Below are positions 1,066-57,215 of a stretch of 64,000 nucleotides of DNA, one piece after another. Every line of letters begins with the position of its first letter. Positions within the stretch are counted from its first letter, which is position 1. This stretch comes from Branchiostoma floridae (taxonomy: Eukaryota; Chordata; Leptocardii; Amphioxiformes; Branchiostomatidae): positions 9,025,389 to 9,089,388 of the forward strand of contig NC_049989.1 in the NCBI RefSeq assembly GCF_000003815.2. The letters run 5' to 3'. The notes under the pieces are model-generated. The model worked only from the letters and a program-made list of their open reading frames with translations. It searched no databases and was not told the DNA's origin. A program made the translations under genes and the position numbers.

Positions 1066-1130
1066 GTATTCTCTGCCAGAAGAAAGTGACCCAACGGCCG
1101 ATCCTGACACACAGAGAAGTCTGTCGCTAG
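1066..1130 (+). CDS. Gene A exon a (linker, SLSLD)
   Basis: 65-nt exon, phase 2 in and phase 1 out. The acceptor is ...cgtcttag|G and the donor is ctag|GTGAGTG, a strong match. It encodes YSLPEESDPTADPDTQRSLSL, with the last G starting an Asp codon completed by the next exon. It matches gene B 34534-34607 and gene C 57160-57215 in phase and in the (R/K/S)LSLD end. No C2A exon is visible between position 1 and here. Confidence 0.75.
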
Positions 1131-4100
1131 GTGAGTGCGCAAGTCACTTGAGGAAGAAGTTTCAATATCATCAATATTACTAGCTTTTTACGTGACGTTA
1201 TCACTGTGTCTGACGCCATGTTGGTGTCCCCTATTTGCATTTTCAATATATCGTAGAACAGGCGTTTTCATACAAGATCTTCTGACCCTTTTAGACTATA
1301 GAATGTCTGCAGCTCAAAGAAGATAATGCTAAGGACCTGGGAGAAATATACTAAACAAATTCAAACACACACACACACACACAGAAATTCTGTTTGCGTT
1401 TGAGCGGCTTGCCTTCTTTATTGTATGAAAAGTTGGTGAAAACGCTCTGTAGGGATGTTACAGCTGTGATGTCAATCATATCCAACACCATATTCTCCAC
1501 CCTGACAACAAAGCAGGAAGCCAGACACATGTTGTAATGTACGCCAGATAGCAATTACTCAAGCAACTGGATATGACTTCGGTCAGACTTATAAATAGCA
1601 GTTACTGCCTTTCATCAATGACACCGAGGAGGTCTTTTTAAGAGCAAGTTTTCAACCCTAACTATGTATTAAAACGTCTGACCGTTTTCCAAAAGCACAT
1701 CCAGTTACTTGAGTCATTGCTATTCGGCGTATCTTATTACCTGGATGTGTAGGTGGTTACATATGTTGTAATTTAATTATGTCAGGAAGTATTCCATCAC
1801 TATACAAGTGGTTGTTATGATTATCAACGCAGCATAATCAGTCTTTATTACCGCTTGGAAATAAACAATTATGACCTTAGCATTCCGTGGATAATAAGAT
1901 TTTTTCCAAGTCGGCTCTATGCCCATGATTATATATGAACACAAAGCACAGCTTGCAAGCTTGCATTTCCTTTACACGTTAAGATTTTCACATAATGTAC
2001 TTCGACGTTTGATGTACTGTTAAACAATGCTTCAATTTCCCTAATATAAAAATGAAAGACCCAGAACAAGTGGTTCAAAATTTATTACAATAATTCGTAA
2101 GACATGTCATCAATCAGACGTTTTAATTGTCTAGCATACCTCTTTACTTCTAAAGAAATCAATTTCCGAAAAGGGTATCCAATAATTTAGCAATTTGGTT
2201 CTCTTGACTTGTTCTACAAGCTCGCTAATTGCAGTCTAGTTCAAGTTAATCAATCAATTTGTTTACGATTCCAAAAAAGCACAGAACTATAGATATGTTT
2301 AGTATATTCATTTCTATACATAAAGGGAAACATGCAATCTTTGATTGTCATATTCTACAGGCTGTACTGGGAAGCTAATCAGAAACCTTTAATCTATTCT
2401 TTAATTTGTTGATGCTGAAATGGAAAGATTTGTACCAATTAGACCAGGCAGGTTCAAAATTGATCGCTCTGGTAACTTGGTACTTCGCCGTATTACTTTC
2501 AGCTACTCACAGCCAGCTTATAATAAGCCGGATAATGGTAAAACGTGTTGGCAGACTCTTATCTATCGAACAGCAGTCTGCAAGAGACTTTTTGCCCAGA
2601 CACTGATGAACGATAATATGATTATGTCTGAGTCTTCCGTTATTGGTCCATTTGGGGTTTGGCATGTGAGCGTGTTTGAAATTAGAAAACGATTTTTATG
2701 CCTCGGTAGCATTACACATTTCAAATGTTTTAAATGAAAAAATCTACTTCTTAAAAGGTAACGTTTACAGGCAAATGCAAAATGTTTAGCTTAACATGAC
2801 ATGACGTACAAACTACGGCTCCGTTCATTCTTACTAAACACATTCATATATCTGGTAACCAGGCCCTCCAGCTCTGTTCTACCACTTGCTACACGATGTA
2901 ATTGAACACCACATGGTGTCTACTACATGACTAGTAACCATGGTGACAGCCGTCTGGTCTAGGTCATTGACCTTATTTGTTTACATAAGAGTAGAAAGAA
3001 ATAGAGCAAAAAACTATGTTGTCCTACTGGCATAAATATGGGTTTGTAAATAACTTCATTTTACAAATTCCGCGAATTTAGTAGGTACTACATTACATGA
3101 TTGTTTTTACCAAATGCCTGACTCTAACAAATAAAAATAAATGTTCTCATGAGATTACTGTAATAACGTTATCGCTGTTTCAATCGTGTAACATGAAATG
3201 ATCATGCTGTGGATTGGCGCTAAACTCTGGGCTGCAATTACTGAACATACTGTTGGTGCAAACAACACAAATTAAAAGAATTTCCGGATGTAGATCCGAC
3301 AATTTGAGATCATACGATCCGAAATCTAATTGTTCTGTGTTCAAATCCTTGACCTAATGATGGGTGCTAGTGCTGTGCCCATTGGGAAGGCAATTTCCAC
3401 GAATTTCCTCATTCGGCACTTTCCCTCAGTTGAAAATGAGCACCTAGATGTTGCTAACACGGGGGAGGTCTTACAAAAACGCCACACATGCATATCAATA
3501 TATAAGCTACTTTTAAGTGTGAGTGACTCAAAACTTTACAGTCTGTTCTTCGGGCCTCCTTACCATTCAACGTTCGCTATTCTTGGGAAAACTTTAAATT
3601 CTACTTACCTTTCACAAGGGAATAACGGCGTTGATGGATTTGAAATTCAATTTCCAACGGCTTAAAGTATTACAGGTAAAGTAGAGTGGAGTTGCAATCT
3701 TTAATACTTAACGGGAAAGTATTGTAGACAAGGCGCAGTCTTCGATCTATATATCACTGGAGCATACCCAAGTGGTTCAACACACCTTAAGTTGGCTGGA
3801 TGTCTGTACATACGTTTTACTGATGCCGGTCTTTGTTTTCACCATCAGTATGCTTGAGTAAATGGCTGCATGTCTACTCTTCTTATGTAATCGTGTTAGT
3901 TATAAAGGTCATATGTTAATTCAATAGAGAAAATCGCGGCATTTAGTGACATAAGGAAACGGGCTGCATATAGTTCCAAAACAAACGTCACAAAAAACAA
4001 CACATACAAATCACATATCATCCATGCAGTCTTGTATTGTGCTGACCAAAGCATGCGGAAGCACAAACAAACAAATAAATAAATGAACAAACACATGCAC

Positions 4101-7100
4101 ATGAACACACATACGCAAAGGATACAATACCTCCTTCGCGACGACAAAAAGCTGTTGTAGATTTGTGATAAATGGGTACAATGTATGTTCGTGTGCGTGG
4201 TAGAACATGCAGAAAGGCAACTTAACTTTAACTATAATACATGCCAATCACTACTGTACAATATTATCAATAAGGCAAATGAAAGGCAGGTAGGCAGGCA
4301 AATGCCACATCTGCTCTGCTGCTAAATACAGATCTTTTCTGTGTGTCGAATCAACCTTCGCTGTGTTTGGAGCGTCCATAAAAAAGCTGCATGAAAGCGT
4401 ATGGTACTATGGCAGGTGTTGACGCTTCGGGGTGGGAGAGGGCTGAATGTTGACCCAAGGTCAACCAAGATCTACCGCCTTATGCTGCTAGACTGAAATA
4501 CTGGTATATTCAGATGTTTTATGACGAACGTTGACATGTGTCCCACCCGATAAGGTTATGAGAGCCGTTTTCAGCATTGGTCGGTGAGGTTGATATGGGT
4601 GCAAGCCGGTCTTCATATACCTTCGCTGTCGAAACTTTATACACAAGGATTTATTGTACGTCGTTCCCTTTATGAGCTGTTAGATCAATATGTGAATAGG
4701 TATGAAAAGTGCTTCAATAAATCAACATACACTAATATAAACTAGGAATTATCGTTGAATTTTCAAACATCTGCTTTGGAAAAGCAGTGTATTGTATTAC
4801 GGCCTTTCAGAATTGTATGTCGGAAAAGTATTTGACGAATTTGCCAGCTTTGAATTAGCCCACCCGAGGTCAGTTAAGAAAATAGACCCTATACATCATG
4901 AAGCAGTAGAGCGGTCAGTCTGTATCGGAGGGATACATGACGGATTGCTTCTCTATTTAGTGGAAGAGTGCATGCATTTTAAATGGAGTAAAATTAATTT
5001 GATCAAATTTGGGATGTGTGGATGGTTGTATTTTAAAAGAGCACTATTGCAGTGGAGGCGTAACAAATGTTCTTTTTATTTCATGGTGATGGAAAACAAA
5101 TATGTAATGGACTTTATTTATCAAAATCCAAATTAAGTGTCAACTAAGAACTCGTAACATCATTTATCATTAAATCACTTCAAAGGCACTTATGAAAGCA
5201 ACAGTTGAGGTTATTTCTTCATATGATGAGCCTAATCTACTTAACCTAGTGATATCAGTGTGCGACATAATGCCAGGCGTGTTGAATCCTTTCGATTTTT
5301 TGTGTTTCTTTTCGTTTTTTTCGCCGTAGAAAAAAATACATTAAATGTGATAAAAGTAATTCTTAGAAATAAGTTATTTGTCAAAACGCATATTTTGTTT
5401 TGGAAAATATTCGACGCAAAAATCATTTAAACTAAAGCATTCTGGCAGAGACTGTTGTTTATTACCATCGGCAACTTTACAACCCGTTCCCGTAAGGACG
5501 AACCTGTTTGCAGACAGCACTAATAGCAAAGCTTAAAATTGGCCCCGACATTGTCACTTTCGTTCAAATGAGTCGTAAAGCGCCGCTCAAGGTAACAATG
5601 ATAGATAAAAGCCGAGAAATCGGCATCGAACGTTGCTGTACGTATTGTCTTTACCTAGCTTGCACAGTGTTATTGAATGTTACCATCTTACGGCCATAAC
5701 CCGTAAAATCTTATCCGCAAAATTGTCGTTCGCTTTAAATGAGAACCTCTATATTGGCATTGATGTAGGTCAAAGAAAAGTCAATGTAAGGGAAAATAGT
5801 AGAGGCACTTATTTTGTTATAGCCCTGCTTTCTATTCATAGAGCAATTCGCTGGGGTTATTCAATCCGCTCGTTCCAAGTTCAAAGTCAAACGTCGTTAA
5901 ATGGAGCAATTTACAATTGTAATGAATATATCTTCGTGTCGAATACGTCATGACTGTAACGCTCATCGCAGCGGATAACTGATTACTCCCAGAGCATAGC
6001 TTCGGTTTCCCGAGTCAATCTGAAGACACCCTTCCGTATCTAGTGGACAAAAACCTAGTCTCCTCCAGAACGTCTTTTAAGGAGAACATTATTTCAAGTC
6101 CAGTGAGCTTAGTGGTCGCTCTTTCAAGGCTCGTAGAATACTGATCGTGTAGTTCAAGTTCACCTTTGTTTTGTTGGCAGATGCAAAGTTTCATTCACTG
6201 TCTGTGTCTGAAGAAGAGTTTGATGATGCGAGAATACGGAGGAGAGAGAAAAGAGCAGGAGACCGGTGAGTCTTTTCATCTTCCTGTTATTCCCTCTTTT
6301 TTGCTAAGCCAGAGACCTACTAAAGCTGTAAAATGTGTTTTTCTTAATCAATACATTATATTACATTATATATACACATTAAAGCATAATTTATTTCCGT
6401 GAAATGCTTGCGTTAATAATTTTTTACCTTTTGTTGCATTTTGAAAAGAAATTTACGACGTGAAAAGGACACAAATCATAAAATAGATAAATAAATAAAA
6501 CATATCAAACTGATACAAATATGTATGAAAGGAAAAAGAATCTGAATACATATTAAGTATACGTAGAATAAATTAAAACAAAAGCTTTTACCTGACAACA
6601 GTTAATATGAGAATAAACAAATGATCTAAAACGAATGCAAAATATAAAGATTCCTGATCATCAGACAACTACTTTCTATCTATGGAATGCAAACGTTTAT
6701 CATTAATTCTGTTCTGTTAAGTAAACTAATTACCCTTGAAGCATGAAATCAAAACGCTGGTAATCGACTGCATCTTGAAATCTTTTGCTGCGAACAGTTC
6801 AGAAGTACCGTCTCAAAATCTCGTGGAATCTCCACAAACAGCTTCAGACATGGTCGCGAGTTTCAACGACATACCTGATAAGCAGGGACTTCTGAATTTA
6901 TTGGTAATCAGAACTAGGTGACATCTAATTAACCACTTGTCACGGTCTAATCATCCTGTCTACCTGACATGCCGCCATGTCTGTACAATCACAAGTTAAA
7001 TCTTCAATTTGTCTGAAGTGCAATCCCAAGTGGAAAGGTGATTGAGTGTTTTGACGTTATCTTGAAGATAAGAGAATCTCCCTATCGTGGAAGTGAAGGG

Positions 7101-8198: not shown

Positions 8199-8265
<67 letters not shown>

Positions 8266-11200: not shown

Positions 11201-14200
11201 CATCCGTTGATAATGACCTCCGCTGCTCGCGAGACATTGTCCATGTGTCGATGTCTCGTTTTAAAAGCATTACAAAGTTCCGGACGCCATTGCGGTCGCA
11301 CTTATCTACGTCAATGTTCAATTACGAGCCAACTCAGGAAACCACCGATGGGACGGCAAATGACGTGCTTCCCGGTTACCATGGCAACCTGACCCTTGAG
11401 GAAGACACTATGGCACAGTCATTTAGAGATAATGTGCTATGATGGTCTCACATGCGTTTTGAGAGAGATAACTCGCAATTTTTCAGGTAGTTTGAGGTAG
11501 TTGTGTGTGCGGTCTTAAAATGAAACAAGAATCATAATTCTGAATATGAAACTTTTTCAGAGAAGGCGGCTTTGAATACTAGCCTCGGATTACCTTTTGT
11601 GCGCAAAATGCATCTAATAAAAGTTTAACTTAAATGCCAGCAACAATCTACATTAAAATAAGTTGTCATATAAAACGTTCGAGATTAAGAAATCTGAAAG
11701 ATCCTTGGCACCCTCACGACGAGATGATAACGAAAGGATAAGACAACGATTACATGACAGAACGTATTTCACGCTTTTAAAGCATTTACAGTTAAAGTAT
11801 TCTAGTTCTGTTTGGTCATTTTCCTTTGCGAAGTTTTGTTCGCTTAATTTTTGTCAGTATGTCATAATCGTCACTCAATGCTATTGTACTCTTATAGCCT
11901 CCACAACATGCAATTATTGTCACTAGATTATTTCTTTATTCGCCAATAAAAAAGAAAAGATATCATCAACATAAATTTTACAATCAATGATTCTTTTATG
12001 GCTGATTGTGTAAGATTCACTGGTATCAATAGTCTCTTGCATATAACAATATGTGTGATAATATCTTATCACATCATCTAAATTGCTAACTAGTATTATG
12101 TATTGAAAAATGTTTAAATTTCATGTTTAAGCTACGATTGATTTATCAAAATTATGTATATTTTTTTAACAAAGTGGAAGATTCCATCGCATTGATGAGG
12201 AAGACGAATTCGGGTAATCCGGTAGCATTATTATCATAACTTCAACTTTACTTTGATTATCATCATGTCTTTTTCTTTGATTTCTTTTCTTACTTTGTAT
12301 TCGCACATTTCGTACTTCATATTATGTATATTGTAAATTTACAGATGCGTCTTGGTTATTCTATGATTTAAATTGCTTTCAATAAACCTTTAAAGCCTAG
12401 TTATTTTTTGATAATTTGAATTTGGTTGGCTGCTTTCAAAACTCTTTTAATCCATCACGTACGCAGTTAGATGTTGCCTAGCTATTGCATGTAGTTTTGA
12501 TATGTGCCGTTATTACATAGGGATTACATGTACTAATGATGTTGACATATCAGGGGACTGAAGCGGCAAGCTCGTCAGGAGTCCATGGGGGGTCTCGCCG
12601 ATGACGACTTCTCCCCTACCTCGTCTCCCTTCGGGTCCAACGATTCCGTGGAAGGTGTCAGATTCGTGAGTACGCCCATACAGATTAAAGATTCAGCTTG
12701 GCCCACTTTCAGCATTCTGTCTAGTAGGGCTTGTCATAGCGGCCTGCGATCCGTCCTTCTCGCTACATAAGTGCTGGACAGCCGTCAGCCAATCAGATAC
12801 TCCCAATGCTGTTTGAGGGAAAGCTGTCAGCCAATTACATAGCCTCTTGACCGTAAGAGGCGACGTGATTGGCTGGCAAATTCACTGCAAACAACTAGGA
12901 GGAGAGTATCCGGGCAATTGACAGTGCGAGAAGGACAGATGCTTGTATGTCAAGGTCGGTCGTTGTCAAAACGTACAAGCGGCGGATCTTCCATAAGAGA
13001 ATAAGGTTAAGATAAGATAAGTTTAAGATTACCCATAGGAAATATCTTTATAGCTCATAAGATCATGGGATGTTGCAGGTCATAAGTCTAAACAGCTCCC
13101 CTTTTGCATCAAATAAGATGGCATTATTAGGTGTGATCTCCACCTATGCAAATGGTTATTGACTAATTTTGGGTAGTTTGCTTAGACAGTAGTAAAGTAG
13201 CCGTGACCGTAGTATCAGAGATGAAACCTGTTAGATAATTGTAAAAGTGATGACAATATGGAAACCATGAGTGTATTTAAGTGATACCAGTATATCAAAA
13301 GTGTCCCCTTAACTACACCAGTGTCCTTCTATTTTGAAAATTTAGCCATCTTGTTTTTTTACACCTACTCTGCTATTTTTGTCCTACCTCACTATGTGTG
13401 CAGATGCAGTTATCCATAAACTTAACTTGCTGTGGCCTTTTAGCGAATAGCTAGTGACGTGCTACTTTGAGACAATCCTCCGAAATGGCCGCATCTCATT
13501 CAGCTGGCTTCATTATCACACCTTGATCGTGTAATAGAGAGCATTTGTAATAGAGAGCTTTCCAGATTTCAAAGTTGAAGTTTGCCACATTGACCTATAA
13601 AGATGTAAATCATTATGCATGCGTAATTCCAGTCTCCTACTATATCTAAAAGTTGACCCGCCTAAAAGCAGATACTCGAGCAATTGGAGATGATTTTGGA
13701 AAATCGTATCCAGTTTCCCGAATAACTACTTTTTGGCGTATCTTGTTACCTGGATGTCTAACCTTCATCAACGTAAAAGTTGACCCGGTTTATTTTTACA
13801 ATGAACATGTCTTCGTAGTCGTCCAGATTCTTAATAATAGGTCGTCGTCTGACATACATTCTTGCCTGCAATTAACACGTTACAGACACGATACGATTAA
13901 TATTCAGTGAAGGCAAAGATGGGAGGCTGTATTATAGTCACAATACGTGACGTCTTCGATCGATGAGACGAAGATGTGACGTCATCAAAACAACGCATGT
14001 TCAACCAGTCAATATGAGAGATGATCTATCGTTTCGGCCCTTGGACGTTTTGGCATTGGCTGATTCTTCAATTACGGCTCCCTGCCATTTTTATAGACAT
14101 CTTAATTAAATCGATACTCTTAGTGACAAAGCTGAGGTAGCCAAATTGAAAGTATACGTATCAAGCTAGGTTTGACTATGATTTACAACATGGGACTCAT

Positions 14201-17200
14201 GTACATACAATTTTTCGACTAAGCAGGTCCAGTCAGCTGAGGACCCGTCGCTTCTTCATGCAGATCGACACGTCACTAGGTTAAGCGAATCAAAACGTCC
14301 GATGCGATTATGACGTTTCCCGTATCCATAGCGACGCTAGAGCGTCTGATTTTCCCATGATGTTTGAAGCAATTCTGCCACAAAATGTAACGCAAATGAC
14401 ATGATGTCATTGACGTAGTCACCGGAGACTAGAGTCATAAGAAACAGCACCCTCTTATTTGATATCATCTAGAAATACATCATCATTTACAACGCTTTGA
14501 GGGATTGGCAGGTTAGATAAGGCCATCCAGGGTTCTCTTGAAGAAATGAGCCATGTTAATCTATATAGGTGGGTGTTAGTAATGAGAGCGCAGTATCGGG
14601 AACCAGATTCTTTGTAAGATTGGCATTCCTGACGACCCCGCGGAACTGTTAATGGTGTTTCATTCTTCGTAAGATCGCCGCTATAGCTCAGTAAGTATAA
14701 GATAAAGTACCCCCAGTGTCTATGGTATAATCATGGTAATCGGACTCTTTCTAAGATCGCCGTAATAGCTCACCAGGCATACATCAGGTAGTGGCAAAAG
14801 AAACACGCTTCAACTGTTACAAAGGTCAATACGTTGTTACTTGTTTAAGACTTAAAAAGTAAAATGAACCGCCATCCTATAAGTGTTATGTAGAATTTGA
14901 CATATCTAGACATATCTAGATATTATTTCATCACCATTGCGTTGGAATGATGGGATCTTAAAACACAACCAACACTTCGATACCTCCTGGGCCTCATCAG
15001 AACTTAGATAGGGCTATACCACTCCTTTCCGCAGGGTGTTGTTGTGTTTAAAAACCTGATATTCACATGGTTCACCAACATAATGGACTCACTTCATTCC
15101 ATAGTCTTTTTTTCGTCTTTTGTAGGAGGAAGTGACGAGACCAGTGAGGCGAAGGCCGTCATCTGGAACAGGCGGAGGCAAGGCGTTCTTCTTTAAAGAC
15201 GTTTTTTTCTTCGTTATTTTGTATGTGTGCTTTAATGGTAGGTTTGTTACAAAGCACTAGGTTCCACACTGCATGGTCTGAAACAGAGCTTTAAAGAATA
15301 AAAAATGAAAAGCTTCAGCAACCAAATCAGTCAACACATTTACAGACAATATTCACTGAGCAGAGACGGCGGGCGGTATAGACTTCTTGACATTTTTAAC
15401 AAGCTACTGAAGTCACGTGTCTGCTAGGTGATTGGTTACTTAAATTCTGCTTAAGGTTTCAGTTAGACATTCTAAAATTTGAGGCAATTTTTTGTATAGG
15501 AATTAAGTTTTAGCTTTGTACGCTATCCAACCTCATATATTGAAAAATTTCGTTCAAAAGTTTAAGGTGCTCTGAATAAATAATCGAATTTTACGACGAT
15601 TTGTGCTTTCTTTGGTTCTAGATGAGAACAGAGACGTTGTTTTATACTAAATACAGGTTCTCTGCGTCGTTGGAGCTCAGAAAAAGCAAGGAGAAGGTCC
15701 AGTGCTGTTTCCGAAGTTCCAGAAGAGAACTCCGCTAATGGAAGACGGATAACACGCCGTCGATCATTAGCGGCGAGAGCGACCATAGACCTCGGGGTGC
15801 GTGCACTGCGTTTTGTTGTTGCATTAGCGCTAGTAGATCCGAGGGCATATCATCTAGGACGAAAAGGAATGCATTAAGCCTTTGAACATAAGGTGGAGAG
15901 GTCATTTTATGCAGTATGTCTTTAAACTATTTTGTCTATGATGCTTCACGTAATAGCTGGTCGCCTTAACATTACTGATATATGATGCATATCTGTGGCA
16001 TGAAGGTGAAGAGAACTATCTATGGTGTTGATATCATGATAAACTGCTTCTCTGTTAGCACTCAGCATTCATCAGTTAAAGGTTACGGTAGTTGAACACA
16101 CAATCTTACCAGTGAACTAGCCTCCTGTTATGTATTATCTGTCCTTGCACAGCTATGAGACTCTATTAGCCTAGGGCTAAAGAAGCGGACACGTGTATGT
16201 GCGCCGCATGGTGTGGAAAGGATTTGATAGCTCCTCATGGAAAGGATTTGATAGCTCCTCATGCATCTTTGACAACGTCAGATTACTTGTTGTAGCTCGC
16301 AAAAATCACACTTGTAAATTTACCAGTCTCGATAGACGCATTTATTTTGTCTTTCTAAACATTCCTGTTGTAGTATGTGTGTTGAGATGTATTCAGTGAT
16401 ATTCTTCAATATTAAAGGATTTTCATATATGACGAAAAAGAACTGCAAACGCTGCAACGGTACTTCTACTTATCCTCAGTATAGCTGGATCTAATACTAG
16501 GTGGCACTGTAGCAAAATGACCGCGGCTCTAAACGTGGTTAGCCTTGAACATGCATTTCCACTTATCACGGTTAATGGTAATACGTAAAATTACAAACCG
16601 CAGTCATCTTGCTATAGCGCCATCTAGCGGCGAGAAGTTGATCAGAGCATTGGTCAGCATTGGCCTAAAGAAGGAAGCAGAAGGCCTGTTTTTACTTGGT
16701 GTTCCAACAACTTATTTTTCTCTACTTCCTTAACAGTGTAAGGAAGACGTGAGCGAGGTTATGTTCTCCATGGGATACCACCCAAATGCCGGTCAACTCA
16801 CGGTCACCATCATCAAGGCACGAAATCTCGCGAGAGTTGGGTCGGACAATCCTCCAGGTGAGATACCCATTTTGCGACACATTTTGTGACAGCAAAAAAT
16901 GAGTAACATATTTGCAGACGACTAGACTAAGGCTGGATCTAATTTACATTTCCTTCCTCAGTAGAACTGGATGTCTTGCATGGGCTAGGTTTATGTGTTC
17001 ACCTTTGAAAAATTTGAATAGAGTAGCTAAAACTTTTACGTTGCAAGCTGAGGGGAATTGTTTTATGACTTTAACAAATTTGTTATATTTTGATCCATTC
17101 TTCATTGGGCGCTGTGGTTTTATTTCAGAATGGGTGAATTTTAGAGTAGTTCGTTTTGGGACAATACTTTTTGCGCTGGATTGATTTCGGAACAGTCAAT

Positions 17201-20200: not shown

Positions 20201-21756
20201 ATCCGTTGGAAACTTGGAGGCGGACAGGGATTAGCACCCCTGCCCTTGAGGAGCTAGGCTCCCCAGCTCTTATCACCCACACATTCACACAAACATAAAG
20301 CTCAAAAGTAAAAAGCGACCACCACCAAACCAAAAGACCCTTGTCCGCGTCCGGAGTCTTCAGCTTTATGAAGTTGGACGTGCACATGAAGAAGAAGAAC
20401 TTAGCAGTTAGCTGCCCTGTAACGGTACTGTAAACCGATAACGTAAATTCTTGGCGATTGTTGTTTCTATCTGTGACATAAACCCCGTCGGAAGTTCAAC
20501 AAAGAAAACAATTGTAACGGGAAGAGGGGAATCTAATATTGCGGCAGAATAGGTTTCTCTCTATGTGTCAACTGTATGAATATAGCTGAGGCTTTCACTG
20601 GATTGTCTAATAATCAAACATAACAGTCACTGGCTGTGATTCAATGGTCTTTATATAGTCGTAGCGAGTCAGCTTTCCGTCTATGCATGAACTCTTCCAT
20701 TTTCTTGTGTTTGATCATTTTAAACTTCTTTGGCTTCACAGCTTCAGCAAACAGAATGAACTGAAAAACTATGTAGACTTGTATGCAAAGATGATCATGT
20801 ACAGAAGGCCAACATTGTGTCACGAAACAACTCCAATGAAGATTGTACAAAAGAGTCTTTCAACCACCATTTTCACTGTCGATGAATCTGCGACTGTGAA
20901 ATATTCAATATACAATTTCTTCATAAGATTTTCCCGCCATATCGCAGATACATACATCAGAGTGGCCCTGATGTGCGAGAGCAGAAAGATCGGCAGGAAA
21001 AAGACGTCTGTCCAGAACGGCGAACCTAACCCGACCTACAACGAGTCCTTCCATTTCGACGTGGCAGAAGACGACATGAAGGGAGTTTTCTTGTCACTGG
21101 TTGTGGAGGATTCCGGGGGGTGAGTGCTGTATACATTTGTCACAATAGTCGTCCATAAATGAAGTCCCTAATTCAACACTTGTGAACAGATGTACTTGTG
21201 AATGATAACATTACGTCATAAAATAACTTTTTTTAAAGTCACGTCACTTTTATCATGTCGTATTATATCATATAATACTATATTATACCATATCAAATTT
21301 CATCATATAATGTCATGATGTATAATACAATTCTGTAGCAAAGCAAAAGTAAATTAAAACGTTACTTTGTCATATATACACGTATCACATAATGTCATAT
21401 TATATCATATAATACTTTTTAAATACCAAATACAAAGCACAGGTTCCCAGTTAATCGGCTGGGCTTTCGTATTACTAGTAACTTGTCATGTCTTTGCCGA
21501 CATACCATTTATCATATTCCCCAAGGGAATGAACCTGTATATACATATCATATGTCTCTTCAGAACGCCGAACTGGTTTTAGATCCCTTTTACTCTGACT
21601 TCCCCCAGCCCTACACTAGGTAAATGTGAGGTCGGCCCGTGGACGGACCAATGGAACGAGATGATGGAGAAGCCCCGGAAACCCGTCACCAGATGGTGCC
21701 AGCTGAAGGAAGTGACGTCAGACAGGCGGAGGAGCAGTGAAGACCAGGATCAGTGA
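1066..21756 (+). CDS. Gene A: synaptotagmin-like tandem-C2 protein, 3' eight exons (5' part off window)
   Basis: Spliced CDS from join(1066-1130, 6181-6265, 12554-12665, 15126-15177, 15681-15796, 16737-16857, 20948-21119, 21609-21756). All junction phases agree and the frame stays open to the TGA at 21754-21756. The first five exons give a basic, Ser/Arg-rich linker of about 144 residues. The last three give a C2B domain that starts EDVSEVMFSMGYHP, has the LTVTIIKARNL strand, the K-rich IGRKKTS segment and NPTYNESFHFDV, and ends with DQWNEMMEKPRKPVTRWCQL. Known synaptotagmins use tandem C2 domains in vesicle docking and fusion. Here the loop-3 acidic D-x-D segment is replaced by EDSGGPTLGK, so Ca2+ binding by C2B is unlikely. 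The subgroup is not assigned; the Ca2+-independent synaptotagmins (for example the Syt12 or Syt15 groups) are candidates. The N-terminus and C2A are expected left of position 1. Convergent with gene B; paralogous to B and C. Confidence 0.85.
1131..6180 (+). other. Gene A intron (a-b)
   Basis: About 5 kb. It holds a CA microsatellite (1365-1382) and a palindromic MITE-B copy (about 1523-1755). Several ORFs of 60-114 codons (for example 2420-2737 and 4792-5136) have no splice context or recognisable domain and are treated as chance. Confidence 0.6.
1523..1755. mobile_element. MITE-B copy (palindromic)
   Basis: Inverted halves: tactcaagcaactggatatg on the left and catccagttacttgagtcat on the right, ending cttattacctggatgt. 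Related sequence recurs near 13650-13770, 24244-24315 and 45838-45972. Confidence 0.65.
6181..6265 (+). CDS. Gene A exon b (acidic/basic linker)
   Basis: 85-nt exon, phase 1 to 2, acceptor tttgttggcag|AT and donor CCG|GTGAGT. It begins (D)AKFHSLSVSEEEFDDA and continues with RIRRREKRAGD. The DA start aligns with DARFS in gene B (32860-32959) and DAHLS in gene C (55788-55911). A run of acidic residues is followed by a run of basic ones, so the segment is probably disordered. Confidence 0.75.
8202..8260. repeat. AT microsatellite
   Basis: About 29 uninterrupted AT units in the gene A intron b-c. Confidence 0.95.
9244..9349. ncRNA. Two inverted hammerhead-ribozyme-like motifs (Penelope-type)
   Basis: Plus strand 9318-9349 reads CTGAAGA, a GAGTGA/TCACTT hairpin, then GAAACG. 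Minus strand 9275-9244 reads CTGAAGA, a 7-bp stem (GAGTGAC/GTCACTC) with loop GGAT, then GAAACG. CTGANGA-stem-GAAA is the conserved hammerhead core, known from Penelope-like retroelements. Stems I and III and a cleavage triplet were not established, so activity is unproven. Together the two form a palindromic repeat. Confidence 0.5.
10833..11108. mobile_element. MITE-A copy 1
   Basis: Ends ggtatttcactgcactt...caccggtgcggcactgcggg and cccgcagtgccgcaccagtg...gagatgccacctta form inverted repeats of about 45 bp. The interior is in the opposite orientation to copy 2 relative to the window. It lies in the gene A intron. Confidence 0.7.
11375..11388. promoter_or_regulatory. RFX-type X-box
   Basis: GTTACCATGGCAAC is a full match to the imperfect palindrome GTNRCC-N2-RGYAAC bound by RFX factors. 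It lies in a gene A intron; its relation to any promoter is unknown. Confidence 0.4.
12554..12665 (+). CDS. Gene A exon c (linker)
   Basis: 112-nt exon, phase 2 to 0, acceptor catatcag|G and donor TTC|GTGAGT. It encodes 37 residues starting GLKRQARQESMGGLADDD and ending SNDSVEGVRF. Length and phases equal those of gene C exon 50126-50237 (also 112 nt), which supports homology although the residues have drifted. Low-complexity Ser/Pro/Asp content suggests disorder. Confidence 0.75.
12666..15125 (+). other. Gene A intron (c-d)
   Basis: About 2.5 kb. It holds a MITE-B copy near 13650-13770 and CCAAT-like repeats around 12780-12890. No exon is seen. Confidence 0.6.
15126..15177 (+). CDS. Gene A exon d (linker, GC donor)
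   Basis: 52-nt exon, phase 0 to 1, acceptor gtcttttgtag|GAG. It encodes EEVTRPVRRRPSSGTGG. The only donor giving the phase conserved in the paralogues is a GC donor, GGAG|GCAAGG, which fits the GC-AG intron consensus. The result equals gene C exon 49722-49773 exactly in length (52 nt) and phase, and the next exon restores Glu at the split codon, as in gene C. An alternative GT donor after 15143 would give phase 0 and break the frame of the next exon. Confidence 0.65.
15681..15796 (+). CDS. Gene A exon e (RRRS linker)
   Basis: 116-nt exon, phase 1 to 0, acceptor ggagctcag|AA and donor GGG|GTGCGT (weak). It encodes KARRRSSAVSEVPEENSA followed by NGRRITRRRSLAARATIDLG. It aligns with gene B 31703-31836 (PEEVLRSLRRGRRRSSAARV) and gene C 49337-49464 (TRRRSTPVRP). 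The repeated RRRS motifs are basophilic-kinase-like sites. Confidence 0.75.
15797..16736 (+). other. Gene A intron (e-f)
   Basis: About 0.9 kb. A 25-bp unit containing aaggatttgatagctcctca is tandemly duplicated at 16214-16263. Otherwise nothing is seen. The preceding intron, 15178-15680, is unremarkable apart from its GC donor. Confidence 0.6.
16214..16263. repeat. 25-bp direct duplication
   Basis: Two adjacent identical copies of a unit containing gatttgatagctcctcatg. Confidence 0.9.
16737..16857 (+). CDS. Gene A exon f: C2B strands 1-2
   Basis: 121-nt exon, phase 0 to 1, acceptor ttccttaacag|TGT and donor CCAG|GTGAGA. It encodes CKEDVSEVMFSMGYHP and then NAGQLTVTIIKARNLARVGS, the first two beta strands and loop 1 of a C2B domain. 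The Asp usually found in loop 1 after the leucine is missing. Counterparts are gene B 29047-29173 and gene C 49015-49132. Confidence 0.9.
16858..20947 (+). other. Gene A intron (f-g)
   Basis: About 4.1 kb. A GC-richer island at 18100-18570 contains one exon-like open segment (18176-18305). A 12-G run lies near 18843. The rest shows no supported feature. Confidence 0.6.
18176..18305 (+). pseudogene. Exon-like fragment of unknown origin inside gene A intron
   Basis: Acceptor tgcatccttcag|CA and donor ATGTG|GTAAGC flank a 130-nt open segment, phase 1 to 2. It encodes HGRQGIDLYSNASQITTQ and later NPPFVGDEMIAFSLALNLAM. The phase cannot be inserted between exons f and g (1/1), so it does not belong to the gene A transcript by itself. 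The opposite strand is also open (79 codons). It may be a decayed copy of another gene's exon or part of a repeat; I do not recognise the protein. Confidence 0.25.
20948..21119 (+). CDS. Gene A exon g: C2B core
   Basis: 172-nt exon, phase 1 to 2, acceptor atatcgcag|AT and donor CCGGGG|GTGAGT. It encodes (D)TYIRVALMCESRKIGRKKTS and NPTYNESFHFDVAEDD, ending in SLVVEDSG. It has the canonical C2B polybasic strand (RKIGRKK) and the NPxxNE turn. The same length (172 nt) occurs in gene B; gene C has 174 nt because of a frameshift. Confidence 0.92.
21609..21756 (+). CDS. Gene A exon h: C2B end and stop
   Basis: 148-nt terminal exon, phase 2 in, acceptor acttcccccag|C, stop TGA at 21754. It encodes PTLGKCEVGPWTDQWNEM, then MEKPRKPVTRWCQLKEV and a short basic/acidic tail ending SSEDQDQ. 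W-NEM...P-P-W is the standard synaptotagmin C-terminal helix plus strand. The usual WHXL motif is WCQL here. Possible poly(A) signals AATAAA lie at 22614, 23511 and 24209. Confidence 0.9.
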
Positions 21757-27314: not shown

Positions 27315-27441
27315 TCAGCTCTGATCCTCGCTGCCCCTTCTTGTGTCTGACGTCACGTCTTTTAGAGTACACCAACTGGTGACGGGTTTCCGGGGGTTAT
27401 CCAACATCTCTCTCCACTGCTCTGACCATGGACCGACCTCA
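27315..27441 (-). CDS. Gene B exon h: C2B end and stop
   Basis: 127-nt terminal exon, phase 2 in, acceptor ctagggggcag|T, stop TGA at 27317-27315. It encodes EVGPWSEQWREMLDNP, RKPVTSWCTLKDVTSD and a tail ending GSEDQS. It is seven codons shorter at its 5' end than gene A's exon (no PTLGKC-like segment), so loop 3 is very reduced. An upstream AG at 27449 would bring a stop, so this acceptor is preferred. Confidence 0.85.
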
Positions 27442-45812: not shown

Positions 45813-45837
45813 CTAAGACAGCAGTGCATCGATGAAG

Positions 45838-47716: not shown

Positions 47717-47892
47717 ATGTTTGTTGTGTGTTGGTTCGAATAAAGTTCCAAAACGGGGAACATGCGGCTCCAGCGTCTTTTCTAAAGATGTGTCGTAATT
47801 GTGAACGGTTGGCTTGAGGTTGTCCTTCCCCACATACAACACAACGGATATAGGTTACGCCACACGGATAAAGGTGAACTACCATAAACATC

Positions 47893-48028
47893 CTACACCG
47901 CTGGACTCTTGCACGACGGCGTGAGTTCCTTCATCTGGCACCACCTGGTGGCGGGCTTCGGGGGCGTGTCCATCATTTCCCGCCACTGCTCTGTCCACGG
48001 CCCGATCTCACACCTCCCTATCATGCCC
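47893..48028 (-). CDS. Gene C exon h: C2B end and stop
   Basis: 136-nt terminal exon, phase 2 in, acceptor ctccaactgtag|G, stop TAG at 47895-47893. It encodes GMIGRCEIGPWTEQWREM, MDTPPKPATRWCQMKE and LTPSCKSPAV. The MIG of the ancestral N-E-x-IG turn is kept only in this paralogue. WHXL is replaced by WCQM. Confidence 0.88.
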
Positions 48029-51000
48029 CTACAGTTGGAGAACATCAACATGTGAGTCTTTAGTGCAATACATCATACGGTCGCATGGGGGCTACTGGAA
48101 GCTGGCTTCGCCCTACCAAGGAGGTTGATAAACTTCATTGTAACTATAAAACGTATTTTCTGTTCTAGATGATGAGAGGAGGTAACCTAGGTACCATCCG
48201 GATGGTAGTTCGCTCCGACGTTTATTATCACACACTATATATACAGTCGCTTCTCGCTCCGACTTTTATCATATTCTATATACAGTCGCTTCTCTGCTAT
48301 TCCCGAAGCGAACTACTATCAGGATGATACCTAGGCTAGAGAGCTGAGGAGGTGTACTTGTTCACGTATCTAAAGAGATGTACAGACTGAGATGTATTTA
48401 AAAAAAATCGTCTATACGTCCATCAAGACCTACCACATACCAAATTCAGCATCAAGACAATCCATCTAGTCTATTTCGAGATACAGTGTTCATACACATG
48501 TACATACACGTGCGCACATACTAGTGCGACAGCACATACAAAAATAAATGAATTTCTTACTGTTCCACCTCTGCTACTGTCAATGCAAGGGACACATTTT
48601 TCATGTCTTCTCTCGTGACGTCAAACATGAAAGATTCGTTGAAAGTTGGGTTAAGAGAGCCAGTTCGTGTTGAAGTCTTCTTTCGGTCTATTTTCTTCTC
48701 ACCATACATTAAAGTTACTTTTACGTAGGAATCTGTGAATAATAATCAGAACAAATTAAGTGAGGAATTATTGGAGAGGTTGCAACTTCTGCTTAATATT
48801 TCTGTCCATGGATATAGTCTTCAAGTTCAAGACACATATAGCATACAATGTGCTTTTATTTTCCTGTTGATTTCTCCAGTATGTGAACTAGTAATCACCA
48901 TAACGTTATGATAGTATAACAGCAGAACAAAAAGTGCACTGTACTCGAGCGCTATCTGGCGGGACAGATAGAAACTGCATTGCAAAAAACAAAACTCGAG
49001 CTCACAGGCTGTACCTGGGGTTTGAGACTGTGTCCTGGTGAGATTCCGTGCTTTTATAACCGTGACAGTAAGCAACTCAGTATGTGGCTGGTAGCTTATA
49101 GAGAACATCAGTTCCGTCACATCTTCTCTGCGCTAAGTACCGACAAAAAGAACGACAATAAGCAATGCAATTTTCTTCTTACTTCGTAATATCTGAAGCA
49201 CACGCGCGCGTGCGCGCCACACACACACACGTACGCGCGCGCGCACACACACGTGTACACAGAAATAAAAGGTTTAACGAAATTTAGATGTACGTTACTT
49301 GATTATAATTTTGTGTTGAATTTCATCACCACTCACCACAAGCTCCAGCATTGGCCTTACTGGCGTTGACCTCCGTCTCGTCGCACCTGTGTCAGCTGGA
49401 CCGTGCTCCAGCGCCCCCTGCTGACAGCGTGTTGAAGTGAACCTCTGTCGGTCATGCACTTGTTCTGAGATGCGCCGATTTCGCGGAGCTGGCAAACATT
49501 CGCATGTGTGAGCAAGGTTCTTAGAATGTTATAAACAAGGGTCATGTAGACTGCCCAGGGCCGTAGAAATGTATGAAATAGTACTTGATTAGTCATGACT
49601 CTATACAGTCAAGGAATTCAATCATACAATTATTGAGTTTGATCACTACAAACAGCACATACACTTAATGTCAAACCCAGTAATAGCATGCACACTAGGT
49701 ACTGTTCAACATGAATGTTACCTTCTTCTCGTTGGAATTCTGACCATTTCCTGCGTGTAGGAGCTCCCTCTGTCTGTTTGTGAAAGGAAAGCAGAAATTA
49801 AAACACTTTCCAAAGTTTCTTGAATACGTAAATCTGATTCATTCTAACACTGTATTCCTTTTTTTCTTTGTTCGTCTTTGTTTCTTTCTATTCGTTGATC
49901 TTTGTCAGAAGAGATCAAAGAATCAACGAATAGAAAGGAAACTAAGACGAACAACGAAAAAAGAATACAGTGTTAGAATGAATCAGATCAACGAACATTT
50001 CAGTTTATCATGGTTTCTTCTAAAACTTATTAAGTTTTATTTTTCAGCAGAATATATCATTATGTGAATTACCCTTGTCCCATACTATCGTGAATGTCCC
50101 TTACACTTGCCAACTGTTCACTTACGTCGAACTTCTGTGCGAGATCTTTGGTCTCCTTGGCACAGGTGGACATCCGGGTCAGGTCAAGCCACGTGCTCTC
50201 CGGACACGGCAACTGGTCAGCATGGTCCTGCTTAAACCTACATTTCGGTGTATAGCTTCATTATTAATAATAATAAGTTTATTTGCAAGTTCATGCCCGA
50301 GGGCTAATTGCAAGTACATGGTATAAACATAGTAGATATATAAGTGACAATGGACAGTTATGAACAATATTCTACTCTAATATTAGTGTTGGCTATTTCT
50401 AAACAGGTAGGGTTTGACCTCTTTTTTGGAAGCAGAGGGAGACGAAAAGCCCCACCTTGTCTACAATTTGTGGGTCCTGCGATTTCAAGAGAAAAGAGGC
50501 TTTCTGTTCGTCTGTCAATGTGGGGAAGTTGAGATAAGTCTTTGTGGCTTCTATAAACAGAGTAATTCTTTCGGTTTCGTTGAATGAACATTTGGAAATA
50601 TAATGTGTTTCGTCTCCCACTGCTTTAGATGTACAGTATTTACAAATTCTTTCACACCATGGTAATCTCTTATATCTCCTTCTTTCTACTTCAAGAGGAT
50701 GAGGGCTAATTCTGACTTTGCTTATTGCGGAACGCAGCTCGAAATCAACTAGTTCTCTTATAAGAAGTACTTCTCTCTAGCGTTTTGTAGAGCCTCGGCT
50801 TACCGGTATCTATACTTATATTATGTAGAGACGTCTGGATTAATGATAAGAAAAGGTCAGGAAAAATTGTCATTACATTAACACACACTGGGCTTTGCTA
50901 TGCTCAATCAAGGAGGCTCCCAGTTCAAACTCCTTGGCTCAATGTTGTCTGTGGTCTGTGTAGCTGGATTTTTCACTGTTGCAATAAATTTAAATTATAC

Positions 51001-54000: not shown

Positions 54001-57000
54001 ACAATCCAGATGACCCCGTTGGGACACTATGATACACTATGCATGTAGATGGATTTTTATACATCTCTGGGTGTGAACACAGATTTATCTTCTGAGCTCC
54101 ATGGTGCCTTTTTTATAGTGTGACGTAAAACACGCATATGTTAACCGAGAGAATTATACTGATAACCATAAAACGAGAGAGAGTGCTAAAACATATCGTA
54201 GAGTAATCTCCCAGCAGNNNNNNNNNNNNNNNNNNNNNNNNNNNNNNNNNNNNNNNNNNNNNNNNNNNNNNNNNNNNNNNNNNNNNNNNNNNNNNNNNNN
54301 NNNNNNNNNNNNNNNNNTGTCTTATGCTACCGTAGGATCTGCTTGGAGATTAATCGTAAAGCTCATACAGCTGTAATAAAAAGGACTATCAATGTCAAAG
54401 AGTTTAAAACCGTAATCAAACAATCAAAGCTAAAATTGGATTTTGGATTCTAAATATTGTAACCAAAGGTTCCACAACGTTGTTGCCGACAGAGCAAACA
54501 GAAAAAAATGCCCAAAACATGTTAGTACCGTCATCTTTACAAACAAGGCCCCCCCCCCCCCCCCATTGGTGGTCATCTTTTCCAACGTAATGAAGTCTAC
54601 TCAACGATCTCTTTAATATTATGCCCCTTCTCCCCACACACTCCCTATATCTTCGTGCTGTGATAATGATGGGTCTCAAGTTAGTCTGTATTCCTATAGC
54701 ACCCAAATATTCATTTATTATTCACAGAACGCAACAAAAACTTTCTTCTTTTTATTACAGGACTCAATTAATAATGAGAAGGCTATAGACCTTACACAGG
54801 GGAGCGTGAGATCGATTTCGTGGTCTTAGATCTTGCAGGACACAGTTGCTAGTCCTGAACTAAGAATAAAAACCCTAGCATCTATATTTTATGTTCAAAC
54901 TATAGCGAATACATACACTGAGAGTGGTCAATTTTGAATCAATCTGTGATTTGTCATGTGTGGTTTCCATCTTCTCTGCAATCAGTAAGAGGCACCAAAG
55001 ATCTGTTCTTCAATTCCGGTCCTGTGGGGGTGTTTTGAAAGGTCCATTACAAAGTTTACTTGGTGTACTCTCACTTTACGAAGGCGTTTGACATGCGTAA
55101 CGGCAGACTGCACTAAGTCCCACTCTTCTGACGGAGCTTTGCGGTAAAAGCCTTTATTTCATGCACGGGAAATACAGGCTTTGGAATGCGCAAAGTTCGT
55201 GAGATCCCAATCTCAAGTTGCGATTTTTAGGTTAAGAAATAATAGCCCCGATAAAGTGTGAGACGAATCTTACCACAAATGTACAACCCAAAACACATCC
55301 AATAAAATGTACATGTATCGTATGCCCGATACATCATAATGGTTATGCTTTAAATGCTGGCCCTTGATTTTCGGCTATACAATGTTTTAAAGTTAAGCAA
55401 CAGCTCTTCCAAATCATATGGAGGCGCCCATCTCCGTATCCTTAGACCTAGGGCCACGCACCAGTGAAGCACAGACGCCACTACAGCACTGAAAGTCAAT
55501 AGATCCCATTGCAGTTACGGCGGCCATTTTGGATTTTTTCTGTGTCCTTTCACCAGCACGAGGCCGGCAAGGATTAAAAGCATGTCTTATAGTATAGATA
55601 AGCCATCTTCAGTGGCAGTTTTGCCCCTCTTACTTGAAGAGTGATGTAATGACCCCGGAATATCCAAAATGGCCGCCGTAACTGGAATGGGGACTAATGT
55701 ATGTATGTGTATACGACTTGGCAAAAAAATGGCAAAATGGCAAAAAAGAGATGATATGTCTTTTCTACATAATATAAAACACGTTACCCTTGAAACTTGT
55801 AGTTCTGGTGGACAACTCCTTCTCTCCTGCGCCTGTTGCCGAACTCCTGTGGGGGCACGAACCTTACAGACGGCGGGCTGGCTCCTCGGGTCGTCTTGGA
55901 CAGGTGGGCGTCTACACAAAGTGTAAAGCGTTGAAGGAATTCACCAAAAGAAGAGGGTGTATTGAAACACTGAAATTATGGAGTTTCATGACTGGTAAGA
56001 TAACTTGGTTGATGTTCTGATAATTAATCATTTCGACTTTTAACAATAAAAGTAAAACATTTTAATATTTACATTTTCACTAAAAATAATAAAAAAATTA
56101 AGATACAGGAGATAAGGATTTAAAGGTTCATACGTGGCATTATATGACAGAAGAGGACAACGTGGCACTGCACTCCAATTGGTAACTTATTTTAACAGTG
56201 TCACATACAAAAAAGGTAAAGGTATAGTCTCATGACCTTTTGATTTTGTAAAGGCAGTGGGTTGTTATCCACTGTGTCTAGGGCACTGTATCATAATTTT
56301 GTTCTATATCAATATGAAATCCCCTGGTAATTTGTTTCTTGATTGGACACTAAAAAAGATTATTTTGTGATGGAAGTAAAAGAATCTATCTAGTACATAA
56401 GGGCCCATCAACCATGATTAAGCTATGACAAGATACTGACTTACTCATTGCGTCGTGACGTCATGTTTCTGATGGTCTTAAGAGCAATCAATCCTAATCA
56501 GTCATCGTAAAACAAATACTTGATGTCTCCAGAAATTTTGTGTTGAAACAAATACAAATCCTTCTCCACAAGAGTGAATTCGAATGTGTTCCAATAGAAA
56601 ACCGCGCTCCAAGAGCAATCAATCTTCATCAGTTTTCGTGAAGAAGTACATAAGGACTGGTTGAACATTTGGTGATGGCTCCAGAAATTTGTGTTGAAAC
56701 AACTACAAATCTTTCTCCACAAGAGTGAACATGTTTCAAAAGAAAACCACGATTCAAGACCAGCCTGCCATGCCCACTAATGGAATATTGCAGACGGGAT
56801 AACCGAGTTAGTCACAAACCATTAGTGGGTATTTTCTGCACATTACCACAATGTACTTGTGCATCGATGGTGGAATTTTCTATTAGCCGTGACTGTCAAA
56901 GGTGGTATCTCACTGCACTTGGGGAACCGGTGCGGCACTGCAGTGTTTGAAAGATTTCTCAACTAATTTCAGAAATAAAGAACAAATTTTCCTACGTTTT

Positions 57001-57215
57001 GTGTATTTTGTTTTCCTCCAAGTCATACCTTTACGTATTACGCAATATCTAGATTATAAAAATCGGCGAAACCACAGTTAACAAACCCCGCAGTGCCGCA
57101 CGGGTGCCCTAAGTACAGTGAGACACCACCTAACGTTCGTGTTGTGTATTCGTACTCACCCAGGGACAACTTTCTGTACTGGTCTGAATCAGAGCCATCC
57201 TCAAAACCTGTATAC
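47893..57215 (-). CDS. Gene C: synaptotagmin-like tandem-C2 protein, 3' eight exons (5' part off window or unrecognised)
   Basis: Spliced CDS from complement(join(47893-48028, 48561-48734, 49015-49132, 49337-49464, 49722-49773, 50126-50237, 55788-55911, 57160-57215)). The phase series equals that of genes A and B. The linker begins YTGFEDGSDSDQYRKLSLD and is basic and Ser/Thr-rich. The C2B domain starts REDVTELMFSISYQP, contains KKIDRKKTS and NPTFNESFMFDV, and ends TRWCQMKELTPSCKSPAV. The central exon carries two extra A in an A run, breaking the frame, so the gene is either a recent pseudogene or carries an assembly error. A 100-N gap lies in the 50238-55787 intron. No C2A exon is found up to the right edge. 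Tandem with gene B, same strand. Confidence 0.82.
48185..48334. mobile_element. 150-bp palindromic MITE in gene C intron
   Basis: The left arm acctaggtaccatccggatg...tagttcgct and the right arm agcgaacta...aggatgatacctaggct are inverted. Two direct copies of tatacagtcgcttctc lie inside. Confidence 0.72.
48561..48734 (-). CDS. Gene C exon g: C2B core with 2-nt frameshift
   Basis: 174 nt from acceptor ttattcacag|AT to donor GAACA|GTAAGA; genes A and B have 172. After (D)SYV the sequence has six A, where the paralogues need four, and the incoming frame then meets TAA. Downstream, the frame resumes with LMYGEKKIDRKKTSTRTG, NPTFNESFMFDVTRED and SLALTVAEVE, all well conserved. So this is one indel in an otherwise intact exon: an assembly or sequencing error or a young lesion. 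Confidence 0.82.
49015..49132 (-). CDS. Gene C exon f: C2B strands 1-2
   Basis: 118-nt exon, phase 0 to 1, acceptor cggtacttag|CGC and donor CCCAG|GTACAG. It encodes RREDVTELMFSISYQP, HTELLTVTVIKARNL and TRTQSQTP. Loop 1 lacks acidic residues. Confidence 0.88.
49201..49260. repeat. CG/CA alternating purine-pyrimidine tract
   Basis: Alternating CG, CA and GT dinucleotides for 60 bp between gene C exons e and f; this sequence type can adopt Z-DNA. Confidence 0.85.
49337..49464 (-). CDS. Gene C exon e (RRRS linker)
   Basis: 128-nt exon, phase 1 to 0, acceptor gcgcatctcag|AA and donor CTTGTG|GTGAGT. It encodes (E)QVHDRQRFTSTRCQQG, ALEHGPADTGATRRRS and TPVRPMLELV. It matches the VH-R-R and RRRS positions of gene B exon e. 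Confidence 0.78.
49722..49773 (-). CDS. Gene C exon d (linker)
   Basis: 52-nt exon, phase 0 to 1, acceptor tcacaaacag|ACA and donor GAAG|GTAACA. It encodes TEGAPTRRKWSEFQREE. Same length and phase as gene A exon d. Confidence 0.78.
49832..49989. repeat. Near-perfect 70-bp-arm inverted repeat (hairpin) in gene C intron
   Basis: Left arm atctgattcattctaacact... and right arm ...agtgttagaatgaatcagat, pairing inward through tctattcgttgat and atcaacgaataga to a loop near tcagaaga. It fills almost half of the 352-bp intron between exons d and c. Confidence 0.85.
50126..50237 (-). CDS. Gene C exon c (linker)
   Basis: 112-nt exon, phase 2 to 0, acceptor cgaaatgtag|G and donor TTCGAC|GTAAGT. It encodes FKQDHADQLPCPESTW, LDLTRMSTCAKETK and DLAQKFD. 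Exactly the length of gene A exon c; ADQLP matches DNQLP of gene B. Confidence 0.8.
50261..50790 (-). mobile_element. LINE remnant (reverse-transcriptase C-terminal region)
   Basis: The minus strand encodes ELVDFELRSAISKVRISP, WCERICKYCTSKAVGDET, HYISKCSFNETERI and LTDEQKASFLLKSQD in one frame. C-x2-C...H-x4-C is the usual zinc-knuckle-like end of LINE ORF2. The 3' side ends in an AT-rich attattaataataataag tail at 50261. An in-frame stop upstream shows it is decayed. It lies in the gene C intron. Confidence 0.75.
51579..51825. mobile_element. MITE-A copy 3
   Basis: Starts in ttaaagtggtatcacac and ends in agtgagataccacat, with inner arms ccggtgcggcactgcggggc and ccccgcagtgccgtaccggt. It lies in the gene C intron 50238-55787. 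Confidence 0.78.
54218..54317. other. Assembly gap, 100 N
   Basis: Exactly 100 N, the conventional size for a gap of unknown length. It lies in a gene C intron, so linkage of the two sides depends on the scaffold, but the exons on both sides join in phase. Confidence 0.98.
55512..55684. mobile_element. Short inverted-repeat element next to gene C exon b
   Basis: Perfect 23-bp arms cagttacggcggccattttg(gat) at 55512-55534 and the complement at 55662-55684. Total 173 bp, no coding. Confidence 0.75.
55788..55911 (-). CDS. Gene C exon b (linker)
   Basis: 124-nt exon, phase 1 to 2, acceptor cactttgtgtag|AC and donor CAAGG|GTAACG. It encodes (D)AHLSKTTRGASPPSVRF, VPPQEFGNRRRREGVV and HQNYKFQ. The DAHLS start matches DARFS and DAKFH of the paralogues. 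All other frames here are shadows. Confidence 0.78.
56484..56755. repeat. Diverged tandem dimer
   Basis: Two units share ctccagaaatt(t)tgtgttg, gaaacaa-tacaaatc and ctccacaagagtgaa, about 135 bp apart. Confidence 0.7.
56899..57132. mobile_element. MITE-A copy 4, beside gene C exon a
   Basis: Arms ggtggtatctcactgcactt and agtacagtgagacaccacct. The right end stops about 28 bp from the donor side of exon 57160-57215, so the element abuts a splice donor region. Confidence 0.75.
57160..57215 (-). CDS. Gene C exon a (linker, RKLSLD)
   Basis: 56-nt exon, phase 2 to 1, acceptor tacctccccag|G and donor CTGG|GTGAGT. It encodes YTGFEDGSDSDQYRKLSL with Asp completed next. Same role as 1066-1130 and 34534-34607. 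Confidence 0.8.

Follow-up and report, generated by a model that had tools for sequence, protein, structure and literature searches.

We analyzed a stretch of 64,000 nucleotides of the Branchiostoma floridae genome (contig NC_049989.1, positions 9,025,389 to 9,089,388, forward strand), referred to here as the window, and found three paralogous genes, denoted A (+), B (-), and C (-), each encoding a C2B domain of the synaptotagmin (Syt) type. Genes A and B are arranged tail to tail; C comes next after B and has the same orientation as B. An original prediction, made from the sequence letters, had described a cluster of synaptotagmin-like paralogues in these orientations; the orientations held, and the ends that it gave, 1066 and 57215, are the starts of exon e1 of A and of C.

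The C2B exons were identified by comparing stop-to-stop frames within the window, which yielded three strongly matching sets corresponding to the start, core, and end exon of the domain in A, B, and C. Splice-site placement put a phase-0 intron before e6, a phase-1 intron between e6 and e7, and a phase-2 intron between e7 and e8 in each gene, giving nine C2B exons in total (positions are those of the window, with start and end phases in brackets):

16737..16857, + strand: gene A e6, C2B start (0,1); splice sites, profile hit
20948..21119, + strand: gene A e7, C2B core (1,2); frame match, splice sites
21609..21756, + strand: gene A e8, C2B end and stop; splice sites, profile hit
29047..29173, - strand: gene B e6, C2B start (0,1); splice sites, profile hit
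27747..27918, - strand: gene B e7 (1,2); frame match, splice sites
27315..27459, - strand: gene B e8 and stop; splice sites, AATAAA 25 bases downstream
49015..49132, - strand: gene C e6, C2B start (0,1); splice sites, profile hit
48561..48732, - strand: gene C e7 (1,2); frame match, splice sites
47893..48028, - strand: gene C e8 and stop; splice sites, profile hit

The joined C2B proteins were all recognized as C2 domains by Pfam (E-values of 1.9e-14 for A, 1.8e-13 for B, and 4.5e-17 for C), in a search of the kind that had been proposed as a check. They can be aligned with each other, as had been claimed, with identities over aligned codons of 90/145 (A-B), 75/141 (A-C), and 71/141 (B-C). With a C2 profile built from these exons together with Syt sequences, nine exons of the window were hit at E <1e-10, all of them contained in the profile, and the next best hit had an E-value of 0.67. 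The best solved relative of A was Syt3 (7.1e-34 for the whole chain and 3.4e-26 for its C2B). The phase-1 intron is located at the third strand of C2B in all three genes. According to PMC2823689, a phase +1 intron of C2B is a signature of Syt genes, and intron phase is diagnostic for them. Two tRNA-Cys genes (28673-28744 and 29398-29469, +) are located on the strand opposite to gene B and flank its e6 on both sides; they are identical over 73 nt and their starts are 725 bp apart.

We then searched for the exons encoding the linker ahead of C2B by comparing candidate exons, defined by splice sites and phases, between the genes, with opposite-strand candidates as controls. When the three upstream regions were compared in six frames without gaps, repeats emerged and no linker exons. 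In the first candidate comparison of A with B, e1 scored 30 and e5 scored 48. Eight hits of at least 22 came from the nine control pairs, the best being 39 (a repeat) and, outside repeats, 25. The later comparison gave 19 for e2 (best control 10) and 23 for e3 (best control 2), and e5 of A matched e5 of B with a score of 60, the best opposite-strand candidate reaching -6. The likeness of the two linkers corresponded to a z of 18.3 and was reached by none of 1000 shuffles. A further upstream exon, e0, ends in phase 2 in both genes, matching the phase in which e1 starts. The frame is open across nine exons, over 963 nt in A and 1017 nt in B, giving proteins of 320 and 338 residues:

269..336, + strand: gene A e0, probably the first coding exon MNRFHNAVGNLSTRIRRLKRSG, donor in phase 2; tail score 49.5 against 6.5 for the next in the stretch, matches B e0
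1066..1130, + strand: gene A e1 (2,1); candidate-exon comparison, LSL donor motif
6181..6265, + strand: gene A e2 (1,2); scores 19 with B e2, versus -12 for the next candidate in A and 10 for the best on the opposite strand
12554..12665, + strand: gene A e3 (2,0); 23 against B e3, best opposite-strand 2
15126..15177, + strand: gene A e4 (0,1); placed by eye, fits in place and phase
15657..15796, + strand: gene A e5 (1,0); 60 against B e5
35865..35932, - strand: gene B e0, probably the first coding exon, donor in phase 2; tail score 48, next 6 in the stretch
34534..34607, - strand: gene B e1 (2,1); candidate-exon comparison, LSL donor motif
32860..32959, - strand: gene B e2 (1,2); candidate-exon comparison, DA[KRH][FLIM] start
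32358..32454, - strand: gene B e3 (2,0); candidate-exon comparison
32008..32044, - strand: gene B e4 (0,1); candidate-exon comparison
31703..31899, - strand: gene B e5 (1,0); candidate-exon comparison

The donor of A e4 at 15178 is apparently GC (GGAG/GCAAGG), and GT is found at the corresponding place in B.

For gene C, we examined the motifs at the junction of e1 and e2, which were taken from A, B, and C themselves and test gene C only. An in-phase exon start of the form DA[KRH][FLIM] is possible at 4 of the 7306 AG sites on both strands, and three of these four belong to the e2 exons of the three genes. LSL in phase 1 precedes 12 of 7829 GT sites, and among these the form GGTRAGW occurs only at the three e1 donors. 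The e1/e2 junction of C reads LSLDA, like those of A and B. By this test, e1 and e2 of gene C are likely exons. Exon e5 of C keeps RRRS ahead of its donor (14 such donors exist in the window, mostly within A, B, and C) and is plausible, while e3 and e4 are tentative guesses from splice site and phase. With a placeholder of two bases, the eight chosen exons of C join into a frame that stays open over 924 nt, giving a protein of at least about 306 residues:

57160..57215, - strand: gene C e1 (2,1), likely; alignment at control level, LSL donor one of three of its kind
55788..55911, - strand: gene C e2 (1,2), likely; begins DAHLS, alignment at control level, 3' end less sure
54218..54317, no strand: 100-N assembly gap within gene C, lying between its e2 and e4
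50126..50237, - strand: gene C e3, tentative; acceptor weak (-2.5), no more similar than controls
49722..49773, - strand: gene C e4, tentative (0,1); splice sites and phase
49337..49488, - strand: gene C e5 (1,0), plausible; RRRS before donor, alignment at control level

The original prediction had given all three genes the same eight exons with identical intron phases. This stands for e6 to e8 in all three and for e1 to e5 in A and B; in C, e1 and e2 are likely and e5 is plausible, but e3 and e4 were not shown. The number of eight was too low for A and B, which extend further upstream to e0 (269-336 in A, 35932-35865 in B).

To place the family, we searched the genome assembly (513 Mb, 431 contigs) with the C2B of A. 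This search uncovered 35 matches. Nine of them fell on exons of the three genes, with identities of 56 to 96%, and the other 26 had at most 41% identity. No fourth close copy was present among the best candidates scored in the genome. Two phylogenetic trees were constructed from Syt C2Bs only, with no outgroup and with a part of the 87 genome C2 matches. The tree of 18 rows included the distant loci L048, L046, and L016; the tree of 17 rows dropped these and added L081 and L082, and L022 was represented by e7 and e8 only. The Syt names given to the genome rows (1, 4, 7, 12, 13-like, 15, 16, and 17) are provisional and were assigned by resemblance. In the phylogeny, which had been proposed as a check, A, B, and C formed one clade (support of 99/99 and 100/99), within which A and B were closest (94/86 and 91/85). 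The deeper position of the clade was without support in either tree, which agrees with the earlier inability to name a vertebrate Syt subgroup. As A and B are closest in the tree and lie tail to tail, and C has the same orientation as B, the arrangement fits an older B/C tandem duplication and a later inverted A/B duplication, in line with the proposed local duplication with inversion.

Descent from the Syt9 group (Syt3/6/9/10) was considered as a possible origin of this clade. Rat Syt3 was the top row outside the family for A (41.8% identity) and B (40.4%) and the second for C (38.3%), in addition to being the best solved relative of A, and A and B share the stretch EM..PRKPV..W with it. However, the tree lacks resolution at this point, and for C a Syt7 of the same genome scores equally (98.6 vs 98.2 bits). 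No Syt9-group gene was found for intron comparison among four further C2 loci of the genome, none of which resembled a Syt C2B. Syt3 differs from A, B, and C, in which no C2A or transmembrane segment was found, loop 3 is shorter, and WCxL or WCxM replaces WHxL. We consider this origin less likely than not.

We next consider the architecture of the proteins. Synaptotagmins, which serve nerve secretion, are classically built of a transmembrane segment, a linker, and two membrane-binding domains, C2A and C2B. No C2A-like exon was detected by tblastn or by the hidden Markov model profile in the window or in the 20 kb flanking it on either side; of the four pieces that make up these flanks, L011 beyond gene C consists of N at 4337 of 10000 positions. 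A Pfam scan of the full-length protein of A, the only one scanned, found a single C2 domain and no second one. The assembled proteins contain no transmembrane-like stretch, with 19-residue hydropathy maxima of 0.75, 1.5, and 0.88. Among ten other Syt-type e6 loci, eight have a phase-0 intron a few codons before C2B, while Syt4 is ambiguous and Syt16 reads through; the eight are presumably Syt1, a second Syt1, Syt7, Syt17, Syt15, a Syt13-like gene, and Syts on contigs C8 and C7, as named by resemblance. Genes A, B, and C keep this phase-0 intron, but it is preceded by the linker exon e5 in the place expected for the end of the last C2A exon. The position of the intron after the linker suggests that C2A was probably lost from a tandem-C2 ancestor. 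With no C2A and no transmembrane segment found, A, B, and C appear to be synaptotagmins in their descent but not in their architecture. This C2B-only reading is carried mainly by A and B. The term synaptotagmin-like, in the sense of a tandem-C2 membrane protein, is not supported for them. The original prediction overlooked the absence of a detected C2A and transmembrane segment; its observation is partly confirmed and its interpretation partly supported.

Alternatively, C2A and transmembrane exons could exist but lie beyond the searched stretch, fall in gaps, or have diverged too far to be detected, in which case the three genes would be ordinary membrane-anchored synaptotagmins with tandem C2 domains. 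Large introns are common here, N positions are present in L011 and in the 100-N gap of gene C, and the frame of e0 is open upstream. Against this explanation, gene B lies between A and C: gene C already has its 3' end some 12 kb upstream of B e0, and no further C2 exon is found in these 12 kb. Moreover, the same profile picks up C2A exons elsewhere in this genome, in several other Syt genes, and e5 occupies the place of the last C2A exon. We regard complete tandem-C2 genes as improbable. No neighboring genes were recognized by eye among the long frames in L009 to L012.

The preferred reading of C2B-only paralogues is further characterized by the pattern of substitution. Between A and B, the nonsynonymous rate (dN) in C2B is 0.28 and the synonymous rate (dS) is 1.46, while the linkers have a dN of 0.68 and a saturated dS. 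This points to constraint on C2B and faster evolution of the linkers, as had been predicted. The open frames, together with dN below dS in C2B, rule out pseudogenes, and A, B, and C appear to be real genes and functional paralogues.

We also analyzed the features of C2B that relate to calcium and membrane binding. At the five positions that we take to be the calcium ligands of C2B, the alignments have at most two Asp in A and B and one in C, which has Glu at loop 3. Loop 3 is about four residues shorter in all three, and the C-terminal motif, WHxL in synaptotagmins, reads WCQL in A, WCTL in B, and WCQM in C. All three retain the basic stretch R-K-K that precedes the T in the fourth strand. The linkers are rich in Arg and Ser, with net charges of +9 (A), +11 (B), and +6 (C). 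They contain 6, 8, and 5 sites of the form [RK][RK]x[ST], overlapping matches within one RRRSS stretch being counted separately and the sites of C lying partly in tentative exons, compared with shuffled means of 1.33, 1.46, and 0.75. These counts were reached by 1, 0, and 3 of 2000 shuffles.

Taken together, these features suggest, with a probability of roughly 70%, that A, B, and C are functional paralogues of one synaptotagmin-derived lineage that encode C2B only and are likely soluble, calcium-insensitive adaptors. An ancestral tandem-C2 synaptotagmin would have lost its C2A exons, and the linker would thereby have come to abut the C2B exons at the former C2A/C2B intron. Local duplication would have followed, placing C and B in tandem and afterwards producing the inverted A/B pair. 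In the resulting proteins, the kept basic strand could dock C2B to an acidic membrane or a partner, and a basophilic kinase (PKA- or PKC-like) could phosphorylate the linker and tune this docking. Such phosphorylation-tuned, calcium-insensitive adaptors are proposed because most of the calcium ligands are lost, loop 3 is short, the basic strand is kept, and the linker carries kinase-like sites. The full scenario, in which a lineage-specific Syt branch lost C2A, anchor, and calcium sensing, became a phosphorylation-tuned soluble C2B adaptor, and expanded into three genes by tandem and inverted duplication, is tentative and somewhat doubtful as a whole. The cluster offers a compact natural series, with three copies in one genome sharing introns, in which a tandem-C2 sensor has seemingly been reduced to a calcium-blind C2B. 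The series allows one to ask what C2B does alone.

Several points weigh against the C2B-only adaptor reading. The proposed function is deduced from sequence composition. The C2A search for A and C reached 20 kb past the window, partly through N, and highly diverged exons would escape it. In A and B, the frame of e0 is open 5' of the ATG, which is a likely start, so an additional 5' exon carrying a membrane anchor is conceivable for both. One donor of A, that of e4, is GC, and this exon was placed by eye. Further points concern the linker of gene C. Its likeness to A was reached by 168 of 1000 shuffles and is not significant, and its likeness to B, reached by 31 of 1000, is weak. Exons e1 (22-24) and e5 (23) of C scored against A at the level of the nine control pairs with their eight hits of at least 22. 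Against B, the scores of C were 10 for e2 (best control 10), 1 for e3 (2), 5 for e4 (0), and at most -9 for e5 (-6). An e0 of gene C was sought in the window and its flanks and was not found.

Reduced synaptotagmins are known from other animals. Synaptotagmins with C2B only or lacking a transmembrane segment have already been catalogued in PMC2823689, and the A/B/C cluster is a further example. The same paper describes Nematostella Syt genes with a single C2 domain or without a transmembrane segment. It also gives mammalian Syt17 (B/K protein) as lacking a transmembrane segment; none was found in the assembled proteins of A, B, and C either, but Syt17 has tandem C2 domains. A literature search turned up nothing on the present cluster in its listings, by which we make no claim that it is unpublished.

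The closest architecture is that of the Syt18 group, which in PMC2823689 has C2B-only members in limpet (Lottia), Xenopus, and fishes, and is called poorly conserved and completely uncharacterised. Judged by titles and the beginnings of abstracts, this paper alone among those found for Syt18 concerns the gene family. The shared reduction to one C2B-type domain would be explained if A, B, and C belonged to this group. The likeness is one of described architecture; A, B, and C differ in being three clustered copies with an Arg/Ser-rich linker, and the Syt18 of Branchiostoma floridae itself is given as tandem-C2 in PMC2823689. We give membership in the Syt18 group little weight.

Descent from the Syt15-like group of this genome is similarly hard to sustain, and was dropped as the preferred reading. 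The group comprises three genes on contig C3 (L057 with L027, L081 with L023, and L082) that form a clade with support of 99/98. Like A, B, and C, two of them have introns in or near C2B loop 3 (L057, phase 1; L081, phase 2, about three residues further, by eye), and the C-terminal end is similar, with RKxxTRW in L081. However, intron positions or phases differ, L057 has an upstream C2A (L027), and a grouping of A, B, and C with L057, L081, and L082 appeared in 14% of 200 bootstrap trees. A presumed likeness to human Syt12 and Syt15 served as a lead only. The profile hits, the linker shuffles, and the genome search led us to reject the idea that the C2B exons and the A/B linker arose by chance or from repeats.

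Contig C3 also harbors a further cluster of diverged Syt-like C2 loci at 24.20-24.23 Mb (L074, L080, L085, and L089). Within the window, a family of interspersed repeats was observed in both orientations (10832-11108, 41582-41780, 45180-45226, 51578-51822, 56897-57133, 59372-59595, and 62608-62839), with aligned units of 45 to 131 nt and a likeness of 60 to 94%. One of the copies lies in the intron after C e1, starting about 25 bases beyond that exon. An 80-bp unit is repeated three times in tandem at 39174-39413, with copies 84 and 81% alike to the first. Short inverted repeats at 57928-58124 (arms 82% complementary) and 24543-24815 (93%) resemble small transposons.

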